Assembly (NCBI RefSeq): GCF_002243045.1
Contig: NZ_MBKP01000006.1
Location: forward strand, 1 to 64,000
Direction: 5' to 3'
Length of the DNA: 64,000 nt
Source: Methanolobus psychrotolerans
Lineage (GTDB): Archaea > Halobacteriota > Methanosarcinia > Methanosarcinales > Methanosarcinaceae
In this document: one piece after another, positions 311 through 16,389 of the stretch
Numbering within the stretch: the stretch's first letter is position 1
Layout: every line of letters starts with the position of its first letter
Program-made: the position numbers and the translations under genes
The notes under the pieces: generated by a model
Databases searched by the model: none
What the model was told of the DNA's origin: nothing
What the model saw: the letters and a program-made list of their open reading frames with translations, nothing else

Positions 311-604
311 TTAGTTACTCTTGCTTTTTCCCTTATAATAACCAATGGTGTATCCAATCACAATTGAACCAAAAGCTGCCTGAAGTGCAAAGAGAAGACT
401 TTCAGTTTCCCCTCCAGGCGGCTCAAACATGTAATCAGCAAACCAAGGTTCCATAGGTTCGTATTCCGGATTGATTTCAGCAACAACATCCCCTGCTGCT
501 CCGTCAGCACCACCGAACTCGGAGCCAGGATTTGCGGCCACTCCATAGAAGAACTGGGCGGCAAAGAGCAATACAATAATACCCACAATATACTCCAGTT
601 TCAT
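311..604 (-). CDS. cbiN: Cobalt transport protein CbiN
   Basis: Accessory membrane subunit of the CbiMNQO energy-coupling cobalt importer; it helps load Co2+ into CbiM for cobalamin synthesis. The 97-residue product has the family layout: an N-terminal transmembrane helix (residues 4-24), an extracytoplasmic loop rich in acidic residues and Pro with the PEYEPMEPWF segment, and a second helix (about 68-90) ending in a Lys-rich tail. Its ATG overlaps the cbiM stop by 4 bp (ATGA), so translation is coupled. The ATPase and T components (cbiO, cbiQ) normally follow but are not present before the window edge. Confidence 0.93.
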   Translation of the reverse strand: MKLEYIVGIIVLLFAAQFFYGVAANPGSEFGGADGAAGDVVAEINPEYEPMEPWFADYMFEPPGGETESLLFALQAAFGSIVIGYTIGYYKGKSKSN

Positions 605-1296
605 TGCATAGCCTCCTTGAGTTTTGTAACCGTCGCAGTAGTAAGAACATTAAGATCAACCAACACATCGCTCTTGATCTGGACCACATATTTCATAATA
701 AGTGCTGTAAGGGCACCTTCCAGTATTGCAAGTGGTACCTGGGTTGTTGCAAATATCCCCGCAAATATCATGAACGAACCCAAAACGCCTCCTTCTGGCG
801 TGGGGAACGCTAATGCCAGTTGGACAGAAGTTACTACATAAGTCACCCAATCTGCAATTGCGGTTGCAAGGAAAACATTCAGGTAGAAGTTCATTCCTGC
901 CTTAGATGCTGCCTTATAGAACATGAAGGCAACCAAAGGACCTATTATTGCCATGGATGCAGCATTTGCGCCAAGCGTTGTTATACCCCCATGTGCCAGG
1001 AAAATTGCCTGATATAAAAGAACAATCACACCGAGAACTGCTGTAATTGCCGGGCCGAAAAGAATGGCTGCCATTCCGGTACCGGTCGGATGAGATGAAC
1101 TTCCGGTAACTGATGGCAATTTAAGAGAGGAAAGAACGAATATAAATGCACCTGCAACCGCCAGTAAAGGTACAACCTCTCGCCTTTCACTTACCAGTTT
1201 ATTCATTTTATACATACCATACAATATCACAGGGATAGAGAATACAAACCACGCCTGCCACCAGGGAGATGGTAGAAAGCCTTCGAATATGTGCAT
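601..1296 (-). CDS. cbiM: Cobalt ECF transporter substrate-binding subunit CbiM
   Basis: Membrane S-component that binds Co2+ through its N-terminal nitrogen and a conserved His. The protein begins MHIFEGFLP, with the family His2 that chelates the metal, and carries the SSHPTGTG motif (His near residue 68) used as a further ligand. About seven hydrophobic segments fill the 231 residues, the usual length. It heads a two-gene unit with cbiN. The start is certain because the Met-His N-terminus is functional in this family. It lies 286 bp from cbiE on the same strand, so it may have its own promoter. Cobalt is in high demand in methylotrophic methanogens, which use corrinoid methyltransferases. 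Confidence 0.95.
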   Translation of the reverse strand: MHIFEGFLPSPWWQAWFVFSIPVILYGMYKMNKLVSERREVVPLLAVAGAFIFVLSSLKLPSVTGSSSHPTGTGMAAILFGPAITAVLGVIVLLYQAIFLAHGGITTLGANAASMAIIGPLVAFMFYKAASKAGMNFYLNVFLATAIADWVTYVVTSVQLALAFPTPEGGVLGSFMIFAGIFATTQVPLAILEGALTALIMKYVVQIKSDVLVDLNVLTTATVTKLKEAMQ

Positions 1297-5138: not shown

Positions 5139-5167
5139 TACCTGTATAGGATCTTTTACGGCAAAAC

Positions 5168-5199
5168 TATCTGGTTGTTAGTATTTTTTTGTTTGCATT
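5168..5199 (-). promoter_or_regulatory. mutL promoter element, shared with mutS
   Basis: A 32-bp block upstream of mutL is identical at 30 of 32 positions to the block at 9232-9263 upstream of mutS. On the coding strand it contains AATGCAAACA followed by an A-run and ATACTAAC, a plausible BRE/TATA pair, then CCAGATA. The end nearest the gene is 30 nt from the 5138 start. The conserved part extends beyond a TATA box, which suggests a regulator site or strict promoter conservation. Confidence 0.7.
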
Positions 5200-5298
5200 A
5201 GCGAATTGACAATTGATAAGTGAATATTGTAAAATGAAGTGCCAACACTCTTATATCAATTCATGCTTTTGGAAGCACATAAAATTTGAAGGTCTTAC

Positions 5299-6489
5299 AT
5301 GGACAATCCCGGTAAACTAAAAAACATAGTGCCTTTGCTAGCTCTTTTAACAGCCTTTCCGGCATTTTCCACAGACATGATACTGCCTGCAATCCCATCC
5401 CTTGCCATGATGTGGAATGAACCACTTGCAGTGGTCAATTTGATCCTCATTTGTTTTTTTGTCACCTATGGATTCTTCCTGCTTTTCTACGGTCCGATAT
5501 CGGATAGATACGGCCGCCGGAAACCATTGATCATCGGAATTTCACTGTACATATTTGCCAGTATGCTGTGTGCTACGGCGAACAATGCAACCACATTAAT
5601 AGCATTTCGCATACTGCAGGCTGCGGGAGCTGCCGCTGGTTCATCATTGTCCATGGCCATGACAAAAGACATCTTTTCAGGAAATGAAAGACAGAGGATA
5701 CTTGCCTATATAGCCATAATCATGGCACTGGCCCCTATGTTTGCACCTATTGTAGGAGGATGGATGTTAGCATATCTTTCCTGGCATTGGATATTCGTTG
5801 CCCAAGGAGTAATGGGTCTCATCGGCCTCCTGGGTGTCCTGAGAACGCCAGAAACGTTGAAAGAAATGTCAGAAACACCTTTGTCAAAGGTCATGCATTC
5901 TTATGGCAGTCTGTTACTTAACAAAAATTATGTAATCATGGTCCTGCTGATGTCCGTGAGCCTTTTACCATTATACAGTTTCATTGCAGGCTCTTCATCA
6001 TTATACATTAACGGATTTGGTCTGAGCGAGCAGAATTTCAGCTATTTCTTTGCCTTTAACGCCTTGGCCCTGATGGCGGGATCAATGTCATGCCTGAAAC
6101 TGACAGATAGAATAAAACCCAAACACCTGATAACTGCCGGTTTTGCAGGAATAGCAGTAGGAGCTGCACTTATTTTAATAATCGGTCAGCATGGACCCTG
6201 GAGCTTTGCTATTCCCATGGCACTGGTCACATATTCCATTGGCATCAGCAGGCCTCCAAGCAACCATCTCGTGCTTGAGCAAGTCCACAAAGATGCTGGC
6301 TCTGCTTCTTCCCTATTGATATTCACATATTTCACCCTTGGAGCTGTGGGCATGTGGCTAGTGTCCCAGGACTGGATGGACAGAATGCAAATATTGGGTA
6401 CCATCACTTTAAGCTGCGGTGTTCTTGTGTTGATCGCATGGATGATCTTACAGAAAAAAGGCATTGGTGCAAACCAACCCCTGGAATGA
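5299..6489 (+). CDS. MFS drug exporter of the Bcr/CflA type
   Basis: Predicted proton-coupled efflux protein of the major facilitator superfamily, 396 residues with about 12 membrane helices. The first helix carries FPAFSTDMILPAIPSL, the D(M/T)YLPAxP signature of the Bcr/CflA/TetA(DHA1) group, and the loop between helices 2 and 3 has GPISDRYGRRKPL (motif A). The motif C region is GGWMLAYLSWHWIF. It is transcribed divergently from mutL, with a short purine-rich site (GAAGGTC) before the ATG. The substrate cannot be told from sequence. It converges on mutS with a T-rich stretch (6520-6545) that may stop both transcripts. Confidence 0.88.
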   Translation: MDNPGKLKNIVPLLALLTAFPAFSTDMILPAIPSLAMMWNEPLAVVNLILICFFVTYGFFLLFYGPISDRYGRRKPLIIGISLYIFASMLCATANNATTLIAFRILQAAGAAAGSSLSMAMTKDIFSGNERQRILAYIAIIMALAPMFAPIVGGWMLAYLSWHWIFVAQGVMGLIGLLGVLRTPETLKEMSETPLSKVMHSYGSLLLNKNYVIMVLLMSVSLLPLYSFIAGSSSLYINGFGLSEQNFSYFFAFNALALMAGSMSCLKLTDRIKPKHLITAGFAGIAVGAALILIIGQHGPWSFAIPMALVTYSIGISRPPSNHLVLEQVHKDAGSASSLLIFTYFTLGAVGMWLVSQDWMDRMQILGTITLSCGVLVLIAWMILQKKGIGANQPLE

Positions 6490-6543
6490 GGCGAATAAGC
6501 ACATGAAGACCTCCAAATTGGAATTAGTTCTTTATTTTATTAG

Positions 6544-9201
6544 TTATTTATCTTTCTGAAGCCTGCTTTTGAGCTGGCTGAGCCGGTTCAGAGCTTCAAT
6601 CGGCGTCATAGAGTTAACGTCCATTTTCTTAAGTTCCTCAACAACAGGATGTAGCCTGCCATCATCACCAGAAGCTGACTGATCGAACAGTATCAGCTGG
6701 GTATATTTGGCACTGCTGCGCTGCTTCTTCCTTCCCTTACGGTCGTCTTCACTGATAACACACTCATTCTCGATATCCTCGAGGATCTCCTTGGCCCGCG
6801 TGGTGACTGCATGCGGAACACCGGCTATTCTTGCAACATGGATACCATAACTCCGGTCAGTTGCGCCCGGCACGATCTTACGCAGGAACACGAGGTCATC
6901 ACCATCTTCCTTTACAGCGATATGGTAATTCCTTACACGTTTTAGGTTGCCTGCAATATCTGTGAGCTGGTGGTAGTGTGTGGCGAAAAGTGACCTGACA
7001 CCCACTCGCCCTTTGTTATGAATGTATTCCACTACAGCCTTTGCGATACTGTAACCGTCATAAGTACTGGTACCCCTGCCGATCTCATCCAGCAGCACCA
7101 GACTTTTAGGAGTTGCATTGTTCAGGATGTTTGCAAGCTCCACCATTTCAACCATGAAAGTACTCTGCCCGCTTGCAAGGTCATCAAAGGCTCCAACCCT
7201 TGTAAAAACCCTGTCCACAATACCGATGGAAGCGTGGGAAGAAGGTACGAAAGACCCTGCCTGCGCCATAATGACTATCATGGCAATCTGCCTCATGTAT
7301 GTGGATTTACCGGCCATGTTCGGACCGGTTATAAGCTGGAACTGGTTCTCACTGCAATCCATTTCCGTATCATTTGGAACAAAACCACCCGGAACTGTGC
7401 TTTCTACGACCGGATGCCTGCCATCCCGGATAAGTAGACGACAGTCAGGTGTTATTGCAGGTCTTACGTAATTGTTGTTGGCGGCCACTTCACCAAGATT
7501 TGCCATTACATCCAGCATGCCAATGAAACCGGCAGTTTCCTGTAACTCCTTTGAGTGTGATGCGACTGTGGAATTGATCTCACAGAGCAGTTCATACTCA
7601 AGGGCTGTCATCTTCTCATCAGCAGAAAGAATGGCACTTTCACGTTCCTTGAGTTCAGGAGTGTAGAACCTCTCAGCATTGGTCATGGTCTGCTTCCTGA
7701 TATAATCATCAGGAACCTGTGATACATTGGCCTTTGTGACCTCAAGATAATAACCGAATACCCTGTTGTAACCGACCTTCATGGACTTGATGCCTGTCCT
7801 GTCACGCTCCTTCTGCTGGAACTTTGCAACCCACTGCTTACCGTTCTTGGAGAGGTCTGCCAGCTCATCAAGCTGTTCATTGTACCCTGGCCTTATCATC
7901 CCGCCATCCCTGACACTCAGTGGTGGCTCTTCCACAATGGCCCTATCTATGAGTTTTGCAAGCTCATCCAGTTTCCCGAAAGAAGATAATTGTGATACGA
8001 TATTCTCCAGCAGGTCAACACCTTTGCATTCCTGAAGAGATCCAATTAGAAGAGGAACAGATTCAAGTGACCTTTTTAATGCTACAAGGTCCCTTGCATT
8101 GGAATTGCCATACATTACCCTTCCTACAAGCCGTTCCATGTCCTTTACATAGGAAAGGTGGGCGCGGATGTCAAATCTAACGAATGTATTGTCCTGGAAC
8201 CAGGCAACCGCATCCAGGCGGTCATTGATAGCATCAACCGAGATAAGAGGTTTCAGGAGCCATTTCTGGAGCAGTCTCTTTCCCATAGGAGTCTTTGTCT
8301 CATCGAGCACTCCGAGAAGAGAAGAATTATTTCCCTCTCCCCTTACATTCCTGACTATCTCGAGGTTCCTCAGGGTGATGGCATCCAGTACCATGAACTC
8401 GGAATCAAAATAAGTCTTCAGGGACTGCACCTGCGACAGTTCCCTCATCTGTGTATCCATTGCATACCGCAATGCTGCTCCTGCAGATGATACCGCACAA
8501 GGTAATTCACTGCAACCCATACCTTCGAGAGTTGAGACTTTAAAGTGCTCAGTGAGAACTTTTTCAGCCCTCTTGAAATCAAAAGCATCCTCATCGAACT
8601 CATGAACGATGATCCTCTGTTCTTTAATACGTTCTGTGAGATGTGGATCTTTAAGCATGGAGCGCGACATGATACATTCCGATGGCCCCATGCGTGCAGC
8701 CTCACTGGCAATCCTGTCGTACGGAGCATTGTCTGTAAGCTGCGTGGTCAGGAATTCCCCGGTAGAAATATCAAGGAACGAAATACCGTATTCATCTTTT
8801 TCACCATACACAGCCATAAGATAGTTGTTCGAGGAATCGGAGAACATGGAAGAATCCATAGCAGTCCCCGGTGTGACCACACGTACAACCCCTCTTTTCA
8901 CAACGCCTTTTGCTTTCTTCGGGTCCTCAAGCTGTTCACATATAGCAACCTTGTACCCTTTTTTGATAAGCCGGGGAAGATAATTATCAATAGCATGATA
9001 AGGGATGCCTGCAAGCGGCATCTTCTCCCCGTCCCTTCCTTTCCCGCGGGTTGTCAGGGTAATCTCAAGTTCCTTTGCAATTGTTTTAGCATCCTCTCCG
9101 AAGGATTCGTAAAAATCCCCCATCCTGAAGAATATGAGGGCATCCTTATGCTCTTCCTTAGCCGAGTAGTACTGCTGCATGGCAGGGGTCATTTTTTCCA
9201 T
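6544..9201 (-). CDS. mutS: DNA mismatch repair ATPase MutS
   Basis: Mismatch-recognition protein, 885 residues as usual for MutS1. Domain I begins MEKMTPAMQQYY and holds Phe30-Tyr-Glu32 in FRMGDFYESF, the Phe-x-Glu motif that stacks on the mispair. The ATPase domain has GPNMAGKST from residue 626 (Walker A), LVLLDEIGRGTSTYDG (Walker B) and FATHYHQL. The C-terminus has the short helical dimer region. It lies 1.4 kb from mutL on the same strand with the MFS gene between them on the opposite strand, so the two cannot share one transcript but do share a promoter element. The TM2-domain gene starts divergently. Confidence 0.97.
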   Translation of the reverse strand: MEKMTPAMQQYYSAKEEHKDALIFFRMGDFYESFGEDAKTIAKELEITLTTRGKGRDGEKMPLAGIPYHAIDNYLPRLIKKGYKVAICEQLEDPKKAKGVVKRGVVRVVTPGTAMDSSMFSDSSNNYLMAVYGEKDEYGISFLDISTGEFLTTQLTDNAPYDRIASEAARMGPSECIMSRSMLKDPHLTERIKEQRIIVHEFDEDAFDFKRAEKVLTEHFKVSTLEGMGCSELPCAVSSAGAALRYAMDTQMRELSQVQSLKTYFDSEFMVLDAITLRNLEIVRNVRGEGNNSSLLGVLDETKTPMGKRLLQKWLLKPLISVDAINDRLDAVAWFQDNTFVRFDIRAHLSYVKDMERLVGRVMYGNSNARDLVALKRSLESVPLLIGSLQECKGVDLLENIVSQLSSFGKLDELAKLIDRAIVEEPPLSVRDGGMIRPGYNEQLDELADLSKNGKQWVAKFQQKERDRTGIKSMKVGYNRVFGYYLEVTKANVSQVPDDYIRKQTMTNAERFYTPELKERESAILSADEKMTALEYELLCEINSTVASHSKELQETAGFIGMLDVMANLGEVAANNNYVRPAITPDCRLLIRDGRHPVVESTVPGGFVPNDTEMDCSENQFQLITGPNMAGKSTYMRQIAMIVIMAQAGSFVPSSHASIGIVDRVFTRVGAFDDLASGQSTFMVEMVELANILNNATPKSLVLLDEIGRGTSTYDGYSIAKAVVEYIHNKGRVGVRSLFATHYHQLTDIAGNLKRVRNYHIAVKEDGDDLVFLRKIVPGATDRSYGIHVARIAGVPHAVTTRAKEILEDIENECVISEDDRKGRKKQRSSAKYTQLILFDQSASGDDGRLHPVVEELKKMDVNSMTPIEALNRLSQLKSRLQKDK

Positions 9202-9231
9202 ATTGACTCACAAAGAATTGGTGCTGCAAAT

Positions 9232-9263
9232 TATCTGGCTGTTAGTATTTTTGTGTTTGCATT
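9232..9263 (-). promoter_or_regulatory. mutS promoter element, shared with mutL
   Basis: Second copy of the 32-bp element seen at 5168-5199, with only two substitutions. It ends 31 nt before the mutS ATG, against 30 nt for mutL. The A-rich ATACTAAC core is a candidate TATA box and would give a leader of about 10-20 nt. Confidence 0.7.
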
Positions 9264-9373
9264 GGGAAGGGAAATAACAACCTATATTAATCAGACACCA
9301 GTTTTATAGAATTGGGAATAAAATTTATTCTTTGTCCGATCGAGTGGAATGTTTGGATCAAAGAGGTGATCTA

Positions 9374-12024: not shown

Positions 12025-15000
12025 TCAAACCACAGTCACATTCATTCCCTTCACCTCAGCCACAACCTCCGGGTTATAGTATGAGTAAGCCTTGCTCTCT
12101 GAAACAATAGCCTTCACCGGGAACAGCGCCTTAACCTGCATACTGAGATTCAGTTCCTCACCCGGCTGCATGTCATCGATATAGAGAATAACTTTTCTGC
12201 CAGCTATTTCGTAGCGGGTTATCAGGGATTCATCCTTGAGAGCTTCAAGACTTGAAGATACCGGACTGAAACCTGTCGGAACCGCAAGGTCCACTATCAT
12301 CATGCCACTGGAAGTTGTGCTGCCATCAATGCCACGGATGCCGTTGTACTTCACATGGGCATTCACGGTTACAATGTCGTTCACGGCTACATCAGTAGAA
12401 TCATATTCCACGTCAAGCTCGATCTCATTCTGCTCGGTGACTTCAGGCAGTATCACATTGAAACGCCTGAGGAGCTGATAGTTCAGGTCTCCTGTGCCAT
12501 CCATTTTTAGCTTCACATTCGATGTTCCGGCAGGGATCTCAATTATCTGCACCACATCGAAATTCTGCTGGTTCACTTTCACTGATCTTATCTCAGTGTC
12601 GTCTGCAATCACATGTACCGTAGCATCAATATCCCTTCCTGCTGATGCTGCTGCACTCATCAGTGCCCTGAAAGCCATGACAGTATCCTGTGTACTGGAA
12701 AATCCTCCGTTGGCATTACGCTGTGCTGAGATCCATTTCAGTGAAGAGATGGCAGTGGGGTTCTTTGCCTCGATCAGGGCAAGGGTCGCATATGCTGTTG
12801 TTTCCACGTTCTTGCTTGAGGGAACGATGAACCCATAACCACCGTAATCGTATGGCAATTCAACATTTCCGCCGCCATAGCCCCAGTAAGTGCCGGCATC
12901 ATCCTGTTTTGCAATTGCCAGCAGGTCATTCAGAGCCTCATCAGCAAATGGGCTGTTGAGTTTCTGAAGGACCAGAGTTCCGATTGCCAGAGCATAGGGG
13001 TCATCCTGGCTGGCAAGGTTGTCCTCAAGGTACTTCTGTGCATTTGCAATGACAACAGGGCTTGCAGAACCATATTCATGCAGTGCAAGGGTCACATATG
13101 CCGTCATGGCATAGGTTCCGCTTACACCACCCATCATGTCCTGGTGTATCACAAAACCGACCTGTTCCCATGAACCATCTTCCTGCTGATGGGACTCTAT
13201 CCAGTCTGCCGCCTCTGAGAGAATATTCTCATCGATGGTTGTCACATCCCTTGCACCACTGAACTGGGATAGTACGAAAGAGGTCAGCCAGAGACTTCCC
13301 TGGGCATCGCTCTCACCGAAGGCCGAGAAGGAGCCATCATTATGGCGGTAAGTCAATTGGCGTTGGTAGCCCGTAATGATAAACATCTCAGCCTTTGCCC
13401 TCACCTCCGGGTTATCCTGTCCGGTTGCCTTCAGGTAGCGCAATACTTCCACGTCAGTGGAGAAAAGCATCATGTTCTGCTCACCGCATCCGTAAGGCAT
13501 ACCCAGCAGGTCATCCACCCCGCTTATGCTCTGTGCAACAATGCTTGGAGTAAAGCTCACAAGCACTTTTTCAGAATCAGGAACTATGCCCTCCGGCAAG
13601 GTTGTGTCCAGTTCCACAGAACCGTTGCTGAGCACCCCGTTATCTACAATCTCACGGGTTGCACCTTCTGCCTCAACGATCATATCCTTCCTGACTGCAT
13701 CAGCTCTTTTTGTAGTCTGTCCCATGATCTCGATAACCTGCTTTCCAACCTCGGTTGGACTTATCGTGAAACTGGTATATCCCACACCATTACCATCCAC
13801 AGTTACGGTCTGCACATCATCACCAATGATATCGAACCAGTCAGCACCCGATAGTGTGAGTTTAACGTCCTGCTCTGTATCAAGATAATTGTATACCTGC
13901 ACCTGAACAGGGAATGTCTCCCCCCTTGTAACGGAATATGGCAGGTCCGGATCAACGAAGAAATCCTGGAAAACTGTCAGACGGGATTCTGAGATGCCAA
14001 TACCCTCCGGTCCGGAAGAAACAGCATGTAACCTCCATGTGGTTATGCTGTCCGGTGCTGTCAGGTCAAGACTTGCAAGACCTGCATCATCAGTGAGTAG
14101 TTCAGGCATCCAGATCCATGTCTCAGGGAAGAACTGGCGTACACGCTGTACCTCTGCAAGCTCCCCGCCTTCGTCACCACTGGAGGCTGTGGTTTCCTCT
14201 GTAGGTATCGCTTCATCCATGGCAGGCATCTCTGCAACCATTTCCTCCTCCACTACAAAGTCCATACCATCCACATCTGCGAAAAAACCTGCAAAATTAT
14301 TCACTTCAAATTCCGCCTTATTCGGTGATTGTGGAACTTCAATAGCAGGTGAAGCCATCACTACCATACCGGCATTTTGCAGCACATCATAGGCACCTTC
14401 CACGTACCATGAAGGATGTGACTCTGCCATTGGCTCCATGAAGCGCTTTTCCAGCTCACTGAAGACCTGCATGAGATTGAGTCTGCCCTCACTTAGTGCA
14501 TAAACGGACTCATCTACTATGGAAAAACCTATCATGGACCTGCTTCCTGCATCAAAATCAACTGTAACATTGTCCCCGGGCTCCACTGAATCACTGTCAA
14601 AGGAACTGGAAAGATCAACCTGTGTTGAGAATTCCACATCAAATGGAAGCACATCCGCAGACACCTCGCTGTTAGGGTTTATCATGTATGCCACTACTTT
14701 TGCCTGCGGGCTCATCTGTGGCGTCACAGGTATGCTTATGTCACTTTCATCACTGGTAGCTGAATATACGGTCCTGCCATTTGCGAACACATCATAGAAC
14801 ACAGTTCCCGGATTTGTGGAGTAGACACGGAAGGAGATCGTGTCCCCTACTTGCGGCACTCCCTCGCTTGTCTGGGAGATATGTATGAAACTGGCACTGG
14901 GCGAGTAGGCTGCATTCAGGGACACACTGGTCCATGCATCATTTCCACTGGCATCGATGAAAAGGTGGTTACTGTCTTCTGGCATCTCGTATTCAAGCAT

Positions 15001-16248
15001 TGCAATACCATCCGTGGTAGTTACCGTTTCCTTGTCCTCAGTAATCTCGTAGGACTCATTCCTTATGCGAGTTTCCACGGTCACTTCAGCATCCACAGGA
15101 TTGCCTCCGGGGTCCTTTGTTACCAGAAGCACCTGCAATGGCATTCCCGGTTTAATCGTATTGGACTCTGGAATAAGCTGGATTACAAGAGGAGACTCGG
15201 AAATTGTGAGCAATTTGTTAGTGGTCTCACTGTGGTTGCCGGTGTCTGTGACAGTCACGTCAAGCATGAGACTTGCCTGACCGCCTGCCCCATATGTTCC
15301 TGCTGCATATTCTACGGCAGGGAGTTCAAACTCAATTGAACCGTCCTCCAGCGTCCCGGAGAAGGTTGCGTATTGCTCCCATTCACCCACATAGCGCGAG
15401 GCTTCCACAAGCACATCTCCTTCAACCTCCTTGCCAAAGAAGTAGTTGACTGAAACCGTACCTGTTATCTCATCAGAGACAAGGAACCATTCCTGTGGTG
15501 TTTCCAGTGAAACGTCGAACTTCGGGAGCACATATTTGTCCACCTGGATATCAACATTGGAGGAAGAATCACCTGCTGTTGCGATTATCTTCCATGTGCC
15601 CAGATTCAGTTCGGATGCAAGTGGCAGGTCAAAGGAAGCAACACCGTATTCGTTGGAGTTTAGTTCTTCCTTGAAGACCTTGATGCCTTTGGCATCTGTG
15701 ATCTCAATGGTAATGTTCTCCTGAACAGGTACAAGATTGTTGTTCAGAGAGAGAATTCTTCCATGTATCGTCTGCCCCGGTTTGTAGATCGGCTTGTCGG
15801 TCTCAATGAACAGTGGATTGCTCCTTACCACTTCCACAGTTGCCTTGAATTCTGTGTCAAAACCCGAAGGCTTCGCGGTCAGCACATAGCTACCCTCTTC
15901 AACATCAGGAACTTCAAAGGAAGCCACAACATTCCCTAAATCAGAGGTTGATGCCCGGACAAGTGTAATTTCATTATTGCCCTCATCAGTTAGTGTATAT
16001 TCCACACACCGGGTCACCGGCTGGTTGTCAGAGAAAGCCGCCATTGTCACTGAACTTTCCCCACCTGCGAAAAGCATCTTCGGTGCAAGTATCAGGAACT
16101 CATCCCCTGAAGAGGACACCTGGCCGCTGCACGGACCGGCTATGTTGGATGATAGTTTATTATCATTCCCGATACATCCTGAAATTAAAACTGCAAACAA
16201 CGATACTATTACTATGAAAGAACCTGCTTTTTTCCCTATTAATTTCAC
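12025..16248 (-). CDS. Alpha-2-macroglobulin-like thioester lipoprotein
   Basis: A 1407-residue secreted protein. It starts at a GTG behind GGAGTGG, has a short signal peptide and a lipobox (VLISGC, Cys near residue 25), so it should be lipid-anchored outside the cell. Successive macroglobulin-type beta domains fill residues 50-650, including FIETDKPIYKPGQTIHGR, a hallmark MG-domain segment. An acidic Met/Glu/Ser-rich stretch around 690-735 replaces the bait region and precedes RVRQFFPETWIW. The thioester is intact: GMPYGCGEQNMM with Cys921, followed by an alpha/alpha thioester domain and a C-terminal receptor-like domain. In bacteria such proteins trap proteases at the cell surface; the same role is an inference here. 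No penicillin-binding protein 1C partner is present. Confidence 0.9.
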   Translation of the reverse strand: MKLIGKKAGSFIVIVSLFAVLISGCIGNDNKLSSNIAGPCSGQVSSSGDEFLILAPKMLFAGGESSVTMAAFSDNQPVTRCVEYTLTDEGNNEITLVRASTSDLGNVVASFEVPDVEEGSYVLTAKPSGFDTEFKATVEVVRSNPLFIETDKPIYKPGQTIHGRILSLNNNLVPVQENITIEITDAKGIKVFKEELNSNEYGVASFDLPLASELNLGTWKIIATAGDSSSNVDIQVDKYVLPKFDVSLETPQEWFLVSDEITGTVSVNYFFGKEVEGDVLVEASRYVGEWEQYATFSGTLEDGSIEFELPAVEYAAGTYGAGGQASLMLDVTVTDTGNHSETTNKLLTISESPLVIQLIPESNTIKPGMPLQVLLVTKDPGGNPVDAEVTVETRIRNESYEITEDKETVTTTDGIAMLEYEMPEDSNHLFIDASGNDAWTSVSLNAAYSPSASFIHISQTSEGVPQVGDTISFRVYSTNPGTVFYDVFANGRTVYSATSDESDISIPVTPQMSPQAKVVAYMINPNSEVSADVLPFDVEFSTQVDLSSSFDSDSVEPGDNVTVDFDAGSRSMIGFSIVDESVYALSEGRLNLMQVFSELEKRFMEPMAESHPSWYVEGAYDVLQNAGMVVMASPAIEVPQSPNKAEFEVNNFAGFFADVDGMDFVVEEEMVAEMPAMDEAIPTEETTASSGDEGGELAEVQRVRQFFPETWIWMPELLTDDAGLASLDLTAPDSITTWRLHAVSSGPEGIGISESRLTVFQDFFVDPDLPYSVTRGETFPVQVQVYNYLDTEQDVKLTLSGADWFDIIGDDVQTVTVDGNGVGYTSFTISPTEVGKQVIEIMGQTTKRADAVRKDMIVEAEGATREIVDNGVLSNGSVELDTTLPEGIVPDSEKVLVSFTPSIVAQSISGVDDLLGMPYGCGEQNMMLFSTDVEVLRYLKATGQDNPEVRAKAEMFIITGYQRQLTYRHNDGSFSAFGESDAQGSLWLTSFVLSQFSGARDVTTIDENILSEAADWIESHQQEDGSWEQVGFVIHQDMMGGVSGTYAMTAYVTLALHEYGSASPVVIANAQKYLEDNLASQDDPYALAIGTLVLQKLNSPFADEALNDLLAIAKQDDAGTYWGYGGGNVELPYDYGGYGFIVPSSKNVETTAYATLALIEAKNPTAISSLKWISAQRNANGGFSSTQDTVMAFRALMSAAASAGRDIDATVHVIADDTEIRSVKVNQQNFDVVQIIEIPAGTSNVKLKMDGTGDLNYQLLRRFNVILPEVTEQNEIELDVEYDSTDVAVNDIVTVNAHVKYNGIRGIDGSTTSSGMMIVDLAVPTGFSPVSSSLEALKDESLITRYEIAGRKVILYIDDMQPGEELNLSMQVKALFPVKAIVSESKAYSYYNPEVVAEVKGMNVTVV

Positions 16249-16389
16249 TTTTAACCACTCCAGACTAAGAGTATTTGTTTCTTAGTATAGAGTTTAGTAG
16301 TGGAACTGTATATACTTTGCTTAAACTTCAAAGATGTTTGAAGTTATAGGGAGTTGAGCAAAGTGGTTTTGAAAATAGAGAACGAAAAA

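Follow-up and report, generated by a model that had tools for sequence, protein, structure and literature searches.

A promoter-type element common to mutS and mutL in Methanolobus, probably copied after the splitting of an operon

The window analyzed here, 64,000 nucleotides of contig NZ_MBKP01000006.1 of Methanolobus psychrotolerans, carries mutS, mutL and, between them on the opposite strand, a gene for an MFS transporter of the Bcr/CflA subfamily (Table 1). The identities that the initial annotation gave to these three genes agreed with the NCBIfam profiles. The start of mutL, previously placed at ATG 5138, was corrected. In relatives (loci L003 and L012) stop codons lie in frame above a conserved mutL start, MT-(D/E)-K-(A/S)-CD, and ATG 5138 is therefore not the start. 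The start common to nearly all relatives corresponds to ATG 5114, with a ribosome site like GGAAGTGG before it.

Table 1. Coordinates of the genes and of the promoter-type elements in the window
Feature	Position	Strand	Basis or remark
mutS, 885 aa	6544..9201	-	NCBIfam TIGR01070 / NF003810 above cut-off
mutL, 631 aa	3219..5114	-	TIGR00585 above cut-off; start ATG 5114 from comparison with relatives
Bcr/CflA-type MFS transporter gene between mutS and mutL	5299..6489	+	TIGR00710 above cut-off
mutS copy of the element	profile match 9228..9264; 32-bp block 9232-9263	-	whole-genome scan, profile, conservation at mutS
mutL copy of the element	5164..5199; 32-bp block 5168-5199	-	restricted to clade A of Methanolobus
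presumed A-rich, poor TATA box AAAAATA of mutS	9246..9252	-	distance from the mutS start in several lineages; published TATA-TSS distance
presumed TATA box AAAAATA of mutL	5182..5188	-	by analogy with the mutS copy

The mutL-side block, AATGCAAACAAAAAAATACTAACAACCAGATA, and the mutS-side block, AATGCAAACACAAAAATACTAACAGCCAGATA, were identical at 30 of 32 positions. The likeness between the two copies was about 40 bp long, and the flanks beyond it were unrelated save for a few bases. A search of the entire 3.16-Mb genome for the 32-bp block with up to three mismatches returned only these two copies, at mutS and mutL; dinucleotide shuffles gave an expectation of 0 matches. An 18-base core matched 15 places at 3 mismatches, compared with 12 for a reversed control pattern. 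This indicated that shorter parts of the block are not enriched beyond the two copies. Scored by a profile of the element, the two mut copies reached 49 and 41 bits, and all other places in the genome 11.3 bits or less. The scan and the shuffles thus bore out the near-identical pair in unrelated flanks that had been described. The scan and the profile pointed to a promoter-type element common to mutS and mutL and carried by no other gene.

The two blocks had been said to lie at the same distance from their start codons. This did not hold with the corrected mutL start: the spacing was 30 nt at mutS and 53 nt at mutL (counted from ATG 5114). Across Methanolobus the mutS spacing was almost constant, and the mutL spacing differed between species.

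The block was divided into an upstream, BRE-like part (ATGCAAAMRC), the A-rich AAAAATA and a conserved stretch toward the start site. The AAAAATA lay about 26 nt from the mutS ATG in genus g11, about 35 nt in Methanoperedens and 44–46 nt in Methanolobus, in every case far enough for a TATA box. In Methanolobus psychrophilus R15, the mapped distance between TATA box and transcription start is 19–22 nt (PMC5378194). The spacing would leave room for a start 19–22 nt below the box, with the Shine-Dalgarno sequence, where there is one, inside the transcript. Transcription is accordingly predicted to start near 9224 for mutS and, by analogy, may start near 5160 for mutL. The block held the sole recurrent TATA-like position across mutS orthologues, and no TATA-like site recurring further upstream was found among them. 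GATAATTT was also considered as the mutS TATA box and rejected: its distance from the ATG is about 13 nt in g11, and in genus g7 and Methanoperedens transcription from it would begin at the Shine-Dalgarno sequence or past it.

For a TATA/BRE matrix, 389 upstream regions of two Methanolobus genomes served as the training set. Matches to it were poor, the best score falling at the 11th percentile of upstream regions for mutS and at the 31st for mutL. The identification of the block as a core promoter therefore rests on spacing and conservation. It resembles the core promoters (BRE and TATA) of M. psychrophilus R15 (PMC5378194) in its position relative to the gene start, in having an A-rich stretch above an A/T-rich box, and in occurring once per transcription unit. 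On the other hand, its AAAAATA fits the TATA matrix of the genome poorly, and conservation goes on below the box for about 15 bp (ACTAACARCCAGATA).

The distribution of the element was followed with a 22-base core in 112 genomes of the family. Near-consensus sites, one or two per genome, were present in 25 of the 26 Methanolobus genomes with mutS; in the 26th (G057) the mutS copy was decayed and displaced. Single sites stood at the mutS start in g7 and g10. Direct reading of the mutS upstream regions revealed the same element in diverged form in g2, g3 and g11, and no element in those of g13, g5, g6, g9, g12 and g14. Five other genera of the family thus carry it at mutS (g2, g3, g7, part of g10, and g11). 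By profile, the mut sites of the Methanolobus genomes scored 31–49 bits and every other place at most 17.4 bits. The 17.4-bit match was the decayed mutS copy of G057, and the next-best place away from the mut genes reached 16.0 bits. A profile search for further regulon members in Methanolobus gave nothing above 16 bits besides the mut sites.

In a class-wide profile search, Methanoperedens-type genomes (f5) matched at E values of 0.008–0.09. The 11 Methanoperedens regions examined had the element, ATGCAAAARCAAAAATAGGAAYAAAC or near it, directly before mutS, and loci L008, L009 and L011 also had it at the mutS start. Of the weak matches retrieved from other families, six were unrelated to mutS. 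The mutS copy is deeply conserved, in Methanolobus, the related genera and Methanoperedens.

In the outgroup genus g7 and in Methanolobus genomes G041, G048, G052, G054 and G056, mutL directly followed mutS, with one element. In the 14 genomes of clade A (G000, G039, G042, G043, G045, G050, G053 and G057–G063) the MFS gene was between mutS and mutL, and the element was before each gene. The clade B genomes with the MFS gene (G040, G046, G049, G051, G055 and G064, and G044 with a decayed remnant of it) had one element, at mutS, and their mutL was preceded by an unrelated sequence, AAGGAAAAGTATGTGTATTYCC. This sequence was present before mutL in six clade B genomes, and elsewhere in the genus only two matches, each with 3 mismatches, were found. 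It constitutes a conserved, clade-specific mutL promoter with GGAAA...TTYCC ends (for example G044:C1:1934512-1934533). The element sought at the mut genes of close relatives was therefore present at mutS and, in clade B, absent at mutL. The pairing of mutS and mutL is not generally required, since this sister clade has the same gene order with an unrelated mutL promoter.

Clades A and B were separate with strong support in the MutS tree. Operon genomes were nested in both of them, and the MFS gene therefore probably has a single gain and several losses behind it. In one clade A genome an IS-like transposase in two frames (122 and 136 aa) was present between mutS and the MFS gene (G061:C1:1219900-1222950; L252).

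When an operon is split, the stranded gene may acquire a new promoter. The mutS-mutL locus is alike in that an inserted gene split the operon and mutL has its own promoter. It differs in that the mutL promoter of clade A was copied from that of the old operon; the one in clade B is unrelated. The pattern expected of a promoter duplicated after the splitting of an operon was observed, with a one-promoter operon in the outgroup and a split locus with a second copy in the derived clade. We interpreted the block to be the core promoter of the ancestral mutS-mutL operon, of which about 40 bp was copied to mutL after the split, with no need for a dedicated regulator, and assign this reading a probability of about three in four. 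The ancestral operon would have had a single promoter, the element before mutS. Insertion of the MFS gene on the opposite strand would have left mutL without a promoter, and in the ancestor of clade A a short duplication of the mutS promoter would have supplied one. Selection may then have retained both copies, so that mutS and mutL would still be expressed in parallel. A recent duplication had been thought unlikely because nothing else is duplicated. Duplication of the promoter only gives the best explanation, although an old one and not a recent one. We infer that the duplication took place in clade A; replacement in clade B of a mutL promoter once shared by both clades would predict the same pattern.

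The conservation of the element had also been taken as a sign of a dedicated regulator or an unusual constraint. It was compared with that of control promoters taken from 400-kb stretches, the names of the control genes being assigned by reading the sequences. Over ten genomes of clade A, mean identity in the best 32-bp block upstream was 0.956 for mutS and 0.90 for mutL, and the control blocks reached 1.00 (CDC48-like), 0.99 (alpha-2-macroglobulin-like), 0.96 (cbiM-like) and 0.955 (radA-like). Between the promoters of G042 and G044, mutS ranked 9th of 114 and mutL 109th, its 18/32 equalling the median for unrelated pairs. In the comparison of G042 with G021, a g7 genome, mutS ranked 5th of 51, some of the higher ranks probably reflecting coding or RNA overlap. 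Of the best control blocks of clade A, two were not retained in clade B proper. The CDC48-like block was confined to clade A, and the radA-like block was present in clade A, in G052 and in three genomes of g11; conservation of the mutS element reaches deeper than that of these two controls. By conservation the mutS promoter belongs to about the top tenth, deep and not unique. Other promoters of these genomes matched it in conservation.

Two of the control blocks lie in the window. The block AACATCTTTGAAGTTTAAGCAAAGTATATACA, at about 16307–16338 upstream of a 1407-aa alpha-2-macroglobulin-like gene (12025–16248, minus strand), had 0.99 identity in ten Methanolobus genomes, and a segment overlapping it still matched at 28/32 in g7, so that its conservation is at least that of the mutS block. 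Upstream of the cbiM-like gene (601–1296, minus strand) a conserved block, ATCGTTATGTTTATCTACCATAACATATTACA, has a GTTATG/CATAAC dyad and is possibly the operator of a regulator.

Alternatively, a dedicated regulator of mutS and mutL may bind the block, either an activator serving the poor TATA box or a repressor over the region below it. Conservation below the TATA box, the poor TATA/BRE match, the restriction of the element to mut genes and its persistence over two families would all fit. ACTAACARCCAGATA could be a candidate regulator site, and the poor basal match leaves an activator-dependent promoter open. Among activator-dependent archaeal promoters with weak BREs, the fla promoter of Methanococcus with its activator EarA (PMC5512572) and the promoters of TFB-RF1 in Pyrococcus (PMC5937170) are the nearest described cases. 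A poor basal match with strong conservation would be in line with them; they differ in that here the activator and its site would be hypothetical. Against such a regulator, no dyad is conserved (the TGCAAA-N25-TTTGCA of this genome is lost in relatives), mutL of clade B manages without the element, and blocks at other genes are equally conserved. A regulon with a shared operator would be expected to have several linked units in more than one lineage. Two sites were found in one clade and single sites elsewhere, and conservation did not exceed that of ordinary promoters. We therefore consider a dedicated regulator unlikely. The same doubt applies to its wider form, in which a transcription factor reading the 32-bp element would control mismatch repair in Methanosarcinaceae and Methanoperedenaceae, the site having been copied at the split to keep mutL controlled. 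A dispersed mismatch-repair regulon, as proposed in the initial annotation, was not supported: the second copy is confined to one Methanolobus clade, and nothing beyond mutS and mutL in that clade points to a regulon under a regulator of its own.

It is highly improbable that the block acts in translation, as an RNA element of the 5' UTR or as a short leader reading frame. The block has a widely conserved ATG near its 5' end, and in most Methanolobus copies a six-codon frame (ATG CAA ACA CAA AAA TAC TAA) ends inside the block. However, in several species the frame is shifted by one-base indels, and in some copies the ATG is replaced by GTG, ATA or ATC; the leader frame was rejected on these grounds. 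A canonical TATA box upstream, which would make the block 5' UTR, was rejected as well, since none recurs across species. Moreover, the distance to the mutL start varies freely, the block ends about 10–15 nt before the mutS start in g11, and it matched no described Rfam family of structured RNA.

We give next to no credence to repeated gene conversion holding the two copies alike, or to a very recent strain-specific copy: the slight excess of similarity within genomes over the full block (permutation p = 0.011) amounts to 0.5 base in 32 and is gone from the TATA box onward (p = 0.78), and the mutL copy is common to fourteen species and has bases of its own. The mutL copies have features in common with one another (GATATTTTTGCC versus GATAATTTGCAG), and bases of their own below the TATA box. 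Pairs of mutS and mutL copies from the same genome agreed at 28.7 of 32 positions and other pairs at 28.2, with no clear gene conversion. Both observations would be expected of a single old duplication, and the best fit is a duplication of this kind in the clade A lineage, with both copies held by selection thereafter.

MutS and MutL are patchily distributed in archaea and were probably acquired from bacteria, and their deletion in Halobacterium hardly changed the mutation rate (PMC2943090). Our literature search found no paper on the regulation of mutS or mutL in methanogens. The element offers a starting point for studying whether there is any regulation of archaeal mismatch repair, and from its two copies the mutS/mutL promoter can be confined to about 32–40 bp. 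The locus constitutes a natural experiment, in which one operon received one inserted gene and two sister clades have different fixes for the lost mutL promoter. As a claim about a regulon it is modest; as a case of promoter copying it is tidy.

Individual copies of the element have changed in two clade A genomes. In G057 an insertion of about 1.1 kb separates the element from mutS, and the orphaned copy has decayed (AAAAATG...), with several core positions changed; the mutL copy of this genome is intact. The orphaned copy shows the fate of the element without selection. The insertion (L251, G057:C1:331800-334200) carries a 272-aa collagen-like gene with GPQGPQGE repeats. In G053 the mutL copy (L012, near 10966) contains a 13-bp tandem repeat inside the element, ACTAACAATCAGA-ACTAACAATCAGATA.
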